Shown: piece by piece, positions 19,895 to 22,412 of the stretch
How positions within the stretch are numbered: the first letter of the stretch is position 1
How the letters are laid out: each line of letters opens with the position of its first letter
IMG/VR virus record: IMGVR_UViG_3300005827_000049
Coordinates: 1-32,131 of that record
Strand: one strand, 5' to 3'
DNA: 32,131 bases
From: a virus
Notes under the pieces: generated by a model
What the model saw: the letters and a program-made list of their open reading frames with translations, nothing else
Databases searched by the model: none
What the model was told of the DNA's origin: nothing
Translations under genes and position numbers: made by a program

Positions 19895-20227
19895 TCAATT
19901 TCGCCATTCGTCTATTATCTTAATCGCATCATCTAGGCTTTTGCAAACAACCATGCCAAGTTTTAGCCATGCCTCTTGCTCTGTGGTTAGCTTTCCTTTA
20001 GGAGCCTTTAACTCCATTATAAGGCACTTCCCATCACCTTTAAATATCAATAGGTCTGGAACCCCTTTAAAAGCCCTAGAAGCCTGCATTGCGATATGGA
20101 TAGGTACTCTACTAGACTTAGTCCAGATATATCTCTGTAGCGATCCTGGAATGTGTACAAATTTCAATCCAACTAATCTTAGATAAGCCTCAACCTGTTT
20201 TTGTAGATCAGCCTCAATGTGTTTCAA
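19895..20227 (-). CDS. VRR-NUC-like PD-(D/E)XK nuclease
   Basis: A 110-residue nuclease. The core reads GVPDLLIF (D58), then MELKAPKG (E72, K74) and Q84 in TTEQEAWL, the classic order of the VRR-NUC type PD-(D/E)XK fold, which can act on branched DNA. An upstream in-frame ATG at 20317 exists, but TTG at 20227 makes a TTGA overlap with the membrane-peptide stop and gives the expected N-terminus, KHIEADLQKQVEAYLRLVG. It probably helps resolve recombination or replication intermediates alongside SSB and the RecT-like protein. Confidence 0.82.
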   Translation of the reverse strand: MKHIEADLQKQVEAYLRLVGLKFVHIPGSLQRYIWTKSSRVPIHIAMQASRAFKGVPDLLIFKGDGKCLIMELKAPKGKLTTEQEAWLKLGMVVCKSLDDAIKIIDEWRN

Positions 20228-20364
20228 TAGGTCACCGATGCTGTTAAGATTGAAGCCGATACCCAGTAGATAACTTTTCTTGTGTCGTGGTCTAGTCCGT
20301 AGATGATAGCGGAACATAGGTCTAAGGCGATCAGTATAGTCGGGAATATTTGCTCTTTTGTCAT
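20224..20364 (-). CDS. Small membrane protein
   Basis: A 46-residue protein starting MTKEQIFPTILIALDLCSAI, with a second hydrophobic helix VIYWVSASILTASVT, so two membrane segments joined by GLDHDTRK. I remember this plan (short start, first span, Asp/Arg loop, IYW second span) from small phage proteins. The ATG overlaps the mini-ORF stop (ATGA), and its own TGA overlaps the nuclease TTG. It lies in the region where a longer nuclease frame would otherwise be called. Confidence 0.68.
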   Translation of the reverse strand: MTKEQIFPTILIALDLCSAIIYGLDHDTRKVIYWVSASILTASVTY

Positions 20365-20414
20365 TTCAATTCCTTCGATGCGGGGTGGCCTGGTATTGTG
20401 CATTGGTAGATCAT
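20361..20414 (-). CDS. Seventeen-residue mini-ORF, possible remnant of a RusA-like gene
   Basis: The frame MIYQCTIPGHPASKELK has ATGA junctions at both ends, with the methyltransferase stop and with the membrane-protein start. The phrase TIPGxPxSK resembles the first strand of RusA-type Holliday junction resolvases, so it may be what is left after a deletion, or just a coupling peptide that carries ribosomes on. Too short for certainty. Confidence 0.3.
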   Translation of the reverse strand: MIYQCTIPGHPASKELK

Positions 20415-21157
20415 GCTACTCCTTCTGATAAGATTCTAAATGCAAGTGAAGCCACTCCAGGTACTTGTCCATTTCCAACGGCTTTAAATCTGTCCACATC
20501 AAAGGCCATAACATTGCGATTTCGTTGAACATAGGAGTCAACCATCCCTCGAACCCCATCCAAGCCAATTGTTCTGGCAATGTTCCTGGCATAGACCTTG
20601 TGAGCATTCTTCGTTTCCAACACGGAGAGCTTATATTGCTCCTTTTGAATTCTGTTGCCGTTGGAGTTAAAAGCGAAAATCCAAATTCGTTCTCTTTCGT
20701 GGAATGCTCCGATTGTTTTAGCTCCCAACACTCCCCATTTTGCATCATACCCCATCTCGGCCAAGTCTCCGAGAACTCGTCCAAGCCCTCTAGAAGTGAG
20801 CATTGGGCTGTTTTCCATGAATGCGTATTTAGGTCGTACTTCGCCAATGATTCTGGCCATGTGTTTCCACATTCCAGATTTTTCTCCTTCAATTCCCGCC
20901 CCATTACCTGCTGAACTAATATCTTGGCATGGGAATCCACCTGTAACAATATCGACCCGTCCTCTCCATTGTTTTCCGTCAAAGGTTTGCACATCGTCCC
21001 AGATTGGGAACTTTGGCAAGATTCCATCTCTTTGTCTTGCAAGCAATACTCTCCTAGGATAGTCTGCCCATTCGACTGCGCAAACTGTTTTCCATCCCAA
21101 TAAATGTGATCCGAGGATTCCTCCCCCTGCTCCTGCAAATAGTGCCAACTCATTCAT
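20411..21157 (-). CDS. DNA (cytosine-C5) methyltransferase
   Basis: A 248-residue enzyme that would methylate cytosine in phage DNA, probably against host restriction. Motif I is LALFAGAGGG (residues 4-13). Motif IV is GGFPCQDIS with catalytic C77. Motif VI is ENSP (E115, N116). Motif VIII is HERER (153-157). Motif X is AVGNGQVPG (226-234). The target-recognition part (about 165-215) is short, so the enzyme is compact. ATG at 21157 has GAAGGG five bases upstream and overlaps the preceding gene by 8 bases. A second open frame covers almost the whole gene in +1; see the next entry. Confidence 0.92.
   Translation of the reverse strand: MNELALFAGAGGGILGSHLLGWKTVCAVEWADYPRRVLLARQRDGILPKFPIWDDVQTFDGKQWRGRVDIVTGGFPCQDISSAGNGAGIEGEKSGMWKHMARIIGEVRPKYAFMENSPMLTSRGLGRVLGDLAEMGYDAKWGVLGAKTIGAFHERERIWIFAFNSNGNRIQKEQYKLSVLETKNAHKVYARNIARTIGLDGVRGMVDSYVQRNRNVMAFDVDRFKAVGNGQVPGVASLAFRILSEGVA
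20416..21153 (-). CDS. Candidate overprinted protein nested in the methyltransferase gene (+1 frame)
   Basis: A 245-codon frame on the same strand, starting 4 nt after the methyltransferase ATG and ending 5 nt before its stop. Its ATG makes an ATGA overlap with the upstream gene, the usual junction here, and the same GAAGGG lies 9 nt away. The product has KYDLNTHSWKTAQCSLL (106-122), TWPRWGMMQNGECWE (130-144), LLTPTA (161-166) and WPLMWTDLKPLEMDK (216-230). I remember these phrases from phage proteins annotated as stand-alone hypotheticals or methyltransferase partners. Translation is not proven. It could be a by-product of conserved methyltransferase motifs. Confidence 0.5.
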   Translation of the reverse strand: MSWHYLQEQGEESSDHIYWDGKQFAQSNGQTILGEYCLQDKEMESCQSSQSGTMCKPLTENNGEDGSILLQVDSHAKILVQQVMGRELKEKNLECGNTWPESLAKYDLNTHSWKTAQCSLLEGLDEFSETWPRWGMMQNGECWELKQSEHSTKENEFGFSLLTPTATEFKRSNISSPCWKRRMLTRSMPGTLPEQLAWMGFEGWLTPMFNEIAMLWPLMWTDLKPLEMDKYLEWLHLHLESYQKE

Positions 21158-21329
21158 TCCATCCCTTCCGTTGAGGTGTCAAGTCCAGTATGCTAATCTC
21201 GTACATCTTGCGATAGTCCCACTTCTTTTCCAGCTCTTGCTTTGCTAGGTCGGGGTGCTTGTGCTCCGCGCTCACTTCGATGAAGCCTGTGTCGGTGTAA
21301 ACTTTGGCGGTGACTAGGTAGCGGTTCAA
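21150..21329 (-). CDS. Small protein with TTG start, upstream of the methyltransferase
   Basis: A 59-residue protein, starting at a TTG whose last bases form TTGA with the upstream stop. The sequence is NRYLVTAKVYTDTGFIEVSA, then a helix (HPDLAKQELEKKWDYRKM) and a strand, a compact alpha/beta plan. It ends TPQRKGWNE. Its TGA overlaps the ATG of the +1 frame and lies inside the first codons of the methyltransferase. An alternative frame with an ATG at 21381 is Arg/Ser-rich and looks non-coding. Function unknown. Confidence 0.62.
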   Translation of the reverse strand: MNRYLVTAKVYTDTGFIEVSAEHKHPDLAKQELEKKWDYRKMYEISILDLTPQRKGWNE

Positions 21330-21956: not shown

Positions 21957-22095
21957 CCTCAACCTCCATTTGCTCTATTTCACAGTTTGAAAAGCCGTAC
22001 CACTCTAGCAACTCCCTTGCACGCTCTTCGGTCTTGTGGCGACTGATTAGGCGTTTCGATCCGTCATCAAAATACATGAAAATGCAGTATGTCAT
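21940..22095 (-). CDS. Small protein, function unknown
   Basis: A 51-residue protein, MTYCIFMYFDDGSKRLISRH and onward. The start at 22095 makes ATGA with the gene before and is preferred over a longer frame inside it. Strand-turn-strand, then a helix (TEERARELLEWYGFSNCEIE) and an acidic tail (VEDDKQD). No known family. Confidence 0.65.
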   Translation of the reverse strand: MTYCIFMYFDDGSKRLISRHKTEERARELLEWYGFSNCEIEQMEVEDDKQD

Positions 22096-22412
22096 TTGAC
22101 CTCCTCCGTAATTCCATTGGCATAGTGGATATAGCAAATAGGTGATTTCCATTTGATGCTATAATATTGATGTGGTGGTTTACCATATATCAAAGGCGTT
22201 TCAGTTCCGTCTCTTTTATCTACTGGACACCAACGATCACCGCAACACTCACAATCAGACCCAGAGTTGCATCCATCAAAGTATATCCCTAAAGATTCGG
22301 CCTTTTCATTTGCAGATTCAGGTGTTTCCGCTTCAATGATTGTATAGCAAGTCAATTTATCATTACAAACAAATGATCCACCGCTGTTGTTTTGATTAAA
22401 TAGATAAAACAT
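22092..22412 (-). CDS. Conserved phage protein with N-x-N-S-G-G-S-F start and CCGDRW motif
   Basis: A 106-residue protein. The N-terminus FNQNNSGGSFVCNDK, then YTIIEAETPESANEKAESLG and CECCGDRW, is a pattern I recognise from a widespread phage family of unknown function. The Cys cluster (C48, C54, C56, C57, C62) suggests metal binding. The start overlaps the HTH gene as TAATG. It is not a known enzyme, and its role in infection is unknown. Confidence 0.75.
   Translation of the reverse strand: MFYLFNQNNSGGSFVCNDKLTCYTIIEAETPESANEKAESLGIYFDGCNSGSDCECCGDRWCPVDKRDGTETPLIYGKPPHQYYSIKWKSPICYIHYANGITEEVK

Follow-up and report, generated by a model that had tools for sequence, protein, structure and literature searches.

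Organization of the Locus

The window analysed here is a virus contig from IMG/VR with a length of 32,131 bases. Its minus strand harbors a C5-cytosine methyltransferase frame of 248 codons (alpha, 20411–21157) and, in the +1 frame, an open reading frame of 245 codons (beta, 20416–21153), which overlaps alpha almost completely. Beta starts 4 nt downstream of the alpha start and stops 5 nt earlier. Two nearly coextensive frames on the same strand had been described in the initial annotation of this DNA and were confirmed here, both on the minus strand. A Shine-Dalgarno-like sequence, GGAAGGG (21163–21169, minus strand), is located 5 nt from the ATG of alpha and 9 nt from the ATG of beta and contains the GAAGGG that had been assigned to both starts. 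Such strings were also present upstream in 69 of 81 relatives. The ATGA junction that had been noticed at the beta start is real: a small upstream open frame with a TTG start at 21329 (21150–21329, minus strand) ends with a TGA that overlaps the beta ATG.

Alpha matched the PF00145 profile (2.7e-32) and phrog_363 (7e-61). The motifs that mark C5-methyltransferases (I, IV with PCQ, VI, VIII, and X) were present in alpha, and PCQ, EN, RxR, and GNG were all found and mostly invariant in our alignment (A2). Motif IV (GGFPCQ, 20924–20941, minus strand) with the catalytic Cys77 was invariant, as were R155 and R157 in the motif VIII region (HERERIW, 20681–20701, minus strand). Motif X, DRFKAVGNGQVP (20459–20494, minus strand), overlaps the beta sequence WTDLKPLEMDK. 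Alpha holds motifs I–VIII and X. Motif IX was absent from the alpha frame, in which the PF00145 match reached only profile position 176 of 324; it sits in the +1 frame instead. The beta product matched phrog_1008 in a profile search (6e-16).

A protein with a VRR-NUC domain (PF08774, 2.7e-06) is encoded downstream of the alpha/beta pair (19895–20317, minus strand); apart from this, no restriction endonuclease was recognised among the scanned neighbours. A frame at 22092–22412 (minus strand) gave a strong match (1e-37) to DUF7296, a domain of unknown function.

Stop Codons, Selection, and Start Codons in the +1 Frame

We retrieved 80 relatives from IMG/VR with the alpha protein alone as query. 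The +1 frame was open in all 80 of these methyltransferase-selected genes, stops at the ends aside, although their lengths vary by up to about 80 codons. The +2 frames contained about 10 to 20 stops each. Regular stops in the +1 frame of homologous methyltransferase genes, which the initial annotation had named as evidence against a second gene, were thus not seen inside the clade of the window.

As a null model we shuffled synonymous codons within each gene, which preserves the alpha protein and the codon counts. For the +1 frame cores of 59 relatives with less than 85% nucleotide identity, 290 stops were expected and 0 were observed. In the +2 control, 852 stops were observed and 767 expected under the same shuffle. 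The shuffle of the window gene alone gave P = 0.002. The chance of about 10^-5 that had been estimated before is arithmetically correct for uniform base use, but this fairer null, which keeps protein and codons, gives the much higher value for the single gene.

Selection was tested by an OLGenie-style two-frame substitution count (own implementation) on pairs that were 80–98% identical. For the +1 frame, dNN/dNS was 0.55 and dSN/dSS was 0.29; the +2 control gave 1.16 and 1.00, respectively. Purifying selection was therefore seen in +1 and not in +2. The N-terminal part of beta was also constrained, with dSN/dSS of about 0.2 for codons 5–60. At degenerate sites the third bases were nearly fixed in certain positions; for example, GAC was used in 40/40 sequences for D222, GGG in 43/43 for G136, and GCC in 38/40 for A226. 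We concluded that alpha and beta are an overprinted pair with both frames under purifying selection. An overprinted family, as had been suspected, is supported by the open-frame statistics, the two-frame substitutions, and the third-base conservation alike.

The position of the beta ATG was conserved in 76 of 81 loci. The aligned first codon of alpha was variable and was ATG, GTG, TTG, or TTA, the last of these with an upstream start. In loci L010, L013, L011, and L036, the first ATG of beta precedes the aligned start of alpha by 23 to 26 nt, and in L010 it is followed five nt later by an ATG in the alpha frame. Which of the two starts comes first can therefore vary.

Assignment of Motif IX to Beta

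The beta family has the consensus LNPxWVEWLMGWPxGWT, which corresponds to motif IX of C5-methyltransferases. The window carries a divergent copy, LTPMFNEIAMLWPLMWT, at residues 205–221 of beta (20491–20541, minus strand). A bridge to canonical enzymes is provided by the one-piece enzyme of mycobacteriophage Moonbeam, in which the motif IX segment and the catalytic part are in one frame. On the Moonbeam enzyme, a canonical C5 profile and the beta profile coincide: both align to HRLHPAFPEWMMGWPAGW, just before motif X. The beta profile reached a domain i-Evalue of 1.5e-10 on RLHPAFPEWMMGWPAGW, and the canonical profile for motifs IX–X, which includes M.HhaI, reached 3.9e-05 on the same residues, both values being calculated against the single sequence. 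In a search of 45 frames the Moonbeam match was 6e-07. Direct profile-profile comparison of beta with the canonical C5 family was weak (E 0.13, probability 0.5%), and the sole alignment lay exactly at motif IX, pairing LNPxWVEWLMGWPxGWT with LHPRECARVMGYPDSYK of M.HhaI. The double alignment on Moonbeam together with the position of this profile-profile alignment indicates that the motif IX missing from alpha is carried by the predicted beta protein.

Searches with beta against Pfam, NCBIfam, and PDB sequences gave no credible match. AlphaFold models of beta alone were of low confidence (mean pLDDT of 54 and 58 with 59 and 144 sequences, respectively), and a Foldseek search against the PDB with the first of these low-confidence models found nothing.

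Constraint Changes between the Frames along the Gene

A sliding profile of codon position variability showed that up to about codon 165 the third position of alpha was the most variable. From about codon 171 to 230 the most variable position was the first position of alpha, which is the third position of beta. Over motif X, it was again the third position of alpha. The interval between motifs VIII and X (20492–20647, minus strand), which comprises the recognition region and motif IX, thus has its wobble in the beta frame. In pairs of equal length, amino acid identity over this interval was 71% for beta versus 54% for alpha, and beta identity was above alpha identity in 48 of 48 pairs. The wobble switch and the identity contrast imply that the recognition region and motif IX are mainly constrained as beta. 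The target-recognition region appears to lie in beta.

Related Loci in Phages and Bacteria

Shorter +1 ORFs nested in a methyltransferase gene are annotated beside the methyltransferase in coliphage K1G ('Mte8-like'), K1ind2, and Paenibacillus phage Leyra. These nested frames matched phrog_1008, and so did the C-terminal halves of the split enzymes of phiBT1, Vash, and Dylan. In the latter three, motifs I–VIII are in frame 0 and motifs IX–X in an overlapping +1 ORF, which reads ...PTPTVSD...LSPEFAEWLMGLDPGWV...LERIGNGVVPHQA, with motif IX followed directly by motif X. In the phiBT1 record the first half alone is annotated, with the remark 'may be inactive'.

Beta of all 59 relatives matched phrog_1008 (best 1e-29). 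In databases the beta frame is found under phrog_1008, 26627, 35493, 27243, 31772, and others, some of them labelled DNA methyltransferase. The 'hypothetical protein' AUR97051.1 of Vibrio phage 1.236.O has the coordinates of beta, and Salmonella phage S9-5 shares this layout. Among the related phages that we checked, the beta half was often absent from the annotation.

Genome contigs of bacteria or archaea, 70 in all, also contained beta relatives, including Pseudomonas, Acinetobacter, Enterobacterales, Planctomycetota, Lentisphaerota, Omnitrophota, and Bacteroidota; every one of the 70 had its beta match in +1 relative to a methyltransferase match. We also considered beta as an unrelated protein that exists without the methyltransferase; no beta relative examined lay apart from a methyltransferase gene. 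The view that relatives in Nostoc, Streptomyces, Porphyromonas, and Synechococcus lack beta, based on stops in their +1 frame, turned out to be wrong: beta is shorter there and starts later. Three loci from draft genomes or MAGs (L196, L205, L206) have an in-frame stop in alpha and a beta frame that is open end to end; they could be pseudogenes, sequencing errors, or cases in which beta was kept without alpha.

We surveyed 88 C5 genes from sampled genomes. The longest +1 ORF covered a median of 22% of the gene when motif IX was in frame (n = 63) and 96% when it was not (n = 25, of which 5 appear to be fragments or unrelated); since the sampling favoured truncated matches and included genomes chosen for carrying beta, these proportions are not frequencies. 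The automatic profile rule assigned an in-frame motif IX to four genes (L270, L277, L296, L297), while inspection places their IX-like segment in the +1 frame.

A tree of 114 alpha core sequences placed all nested and split enzymes on one branch of 59 rows, with a support of 98/84, bootstrap values that are not fully settled. This branch also includes L296, L297, the one-piece Moonbeam enzyme, and the long-branch monomer L331. The other 55 enzymes with motif IX in frame were placed outside the beta-type branch. L270 and L277, both from Pseudomonas genomes, form a separate C5 lineage that adjoins other beta-type enzymes in the tree. Their +1 ORF of 265 codons was reached by no shuffle of 200–300 and contains LSGSERLKMMGFASDW, which is perhaps another displaced motif IX. 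The monomeric C5 gene L353 has an open +2 frame of 340 codons, a length that was reached in 0/200 shuffles with a mean of 96.

A Probable Two-Polypeptide Methyltransferase from Overlapping Frames

We consider it highly probable (roughly 0.83) that two frames with almost full overlap encode a DNA cytosine-5 methyltransferase of two polypeptides at this locus, with beta most likely being the second subunit. Alpha (frame 0) would provide the SAM-binding and catalytic core (motifs I–VIII) and motif X. Beta, which would be initiated from the same ribosome-binding region as alpha, would contribute motif IX and probably most of the target-recognition region. A single mRNA would yield the two proteins next to each other, and the active enzyme would form by their assembly. 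The translation of beta, its assembly with alpha, and their joint activity are predicted here from sequence features. The enzyme would probably mark the phage's own DNA, with the phage setting pointing to self-protection. Among the roles that the initial annotation had suggested for the second protein, a partner or specificity subunit is favoured, since motif IX, absent from alpha, is found in beta and the recognition region is constrained chiefly as beta; an inhibitor is without support.

Programmed frameshifting would give one complete chain if ribosomes entered the +1 frame once motif VIII had been read and returned to frame 0 ahead of motif X. Such a double shift would produce the same succession of wobble in frame 0, +1, and frame 0, and in phiBT1, Vash, and Dylan one shift would be sufficient to yield a whole enzyme. 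We nevertheless regard frameshifting as improbable. It needs two opposite and efficient shifts, and the precedent, M.EcoHK31I, consists of two polypeptides (PMC3404938). Furthermore, upstream of motif VIII and also downstream of motif IX the +1 frame remains open and under constraint, and beta has its own ATG in nearly all loci (76/81).

About equally improbable is that alpha works alone and that beta, though a genuine overprinted protein, acts in another way, such as a methyltransferase inhibitor, an anti-restriction factor, or a regulator would. Overprinted genes often code for accessory factors, and alpha does retain the catalytic motifs and motif X. However, beta has exactly the motif that is missing from alpha, and the constraint shifts to beta in the recognition region. 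In-frame motif IX and a long +1 ORF also tend toward mutual exclusion across the C5 genes, which is not in favor of an independent role.

That the +1 ORF is no gene at all and a by-product of methyltransferase codons, whose conserved residues bias the +1 frame and which in GC-rich members leave fewer stops to be expected, is statistically refuted by the lack of any stop against 290 expected under the protein- and codon-preserving null, the dN/dS-type tests, the near-fixed third bases, and the wobble switch; the shuffle null and the substitution tests exclude an origin by chance or codon bias.

Beyond the window, the two-subunit reading can be extended with somewhat less confidence. It is likely that a branch of the C5 family consists of obligate two-subunit enzymes, which occur in phages and prophages of several phyla and have the half with the recognition region and motif IX in the +1 frame; in the clade of the window this half would extend over the entire gene. 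If this is true, single-gene annotations of that branch describe incomplete and inactive enzymes, and many phage methyltransferases annotated as one gene would be half an enzyme. This would account for failed expression and would mislead motif assignment. The branch would also provide many natural examples of genes that overlap deeply in phages with double-stranded DNA. Each of the two frames would have an assigned function, the passage of constraint between them can be seen, and such genes could serve as a test bed for the co-evolution of two jointly working proteins in the same nucleotides.

Comparison with Known Systems

In the open-access literature searched, we found no description of overprinted phage methyltransferase genes of this kind, of their breadth, or of the end-to-end overlap. 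A second protein encoded out of frame within a phage methylase gene is known from ShiLan, where an HNH endonuclease is present as a mobile insertion (PMC11855218). Unlike in ShiLan, the overlap in the window is with the catalytic core. We rejected an HNH insertion of the ShiLan type for the window: no inserted element is present, the conserved catalytic core is itself covered by the +1 frame, and beta has no Pfam nuclease match.

M.AquI is a C5-methyltransferase of two polypeptides, the smaller of which carries motif IX (PMC3404938), and the enzyme predicted for the window resembles it in being split over two chains in this way. In M.AquI, unlike in the window, the smaller subunit has motifs IX and X together, a layout that resembles phiBT1 and Corndogvirus.

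The pairs of K1G, K1ind2, and Leyra are similar to the window in that a +1 ORF is nested in a phrog_363 methyltransferase and encodes a product with a match to phrog_1008 and a motif IX-like segment at its end. Their beta frames start 88 to 184 nt inside alpha, unlike that of the window. The nested ORFs are annotated without a stated function or simply as methyltransferase.

In M.EcoHK31I, the beta gene was reportedly found by Lee, Kam and Shaw in 1995 to be nested in alpha in another frame, and its product has about 176 aa inside an alpha of 309 aa. This nesting is similar to that in the window. The beta frame of the window, however, runs along alpha from one end to the other (245 of 248 codons). 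M.EcoHK31I is a naturally split C5-methyltransferase that recognises YGGCCR and has motif IX alone on the smaller polypeptide, while the large polypeptide has motifs I–VIII and X and also the predicted target-recognition domain (PMC3404938). By this described layout, the large chain of the window with motifs I–VIII and X and its predicted second chain with motif IX correspond to the two polypeptides of M.EcoHK31I. The position of the target-recognition domain probably differs, since the wobble analysis puts the main constraint on this region in beta and not in the larger subunit. A further difference from M.EcoHK31I is that the window gene belongs to a phage, and in the part examined no restriction endonuclease was recognised. 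In comparison with M.EcoHK31I, the end-to-end overlap appears to be new, as do the breadth of occurrence in phages and prophages and the position of the recognition region, which apparently lies in beta.
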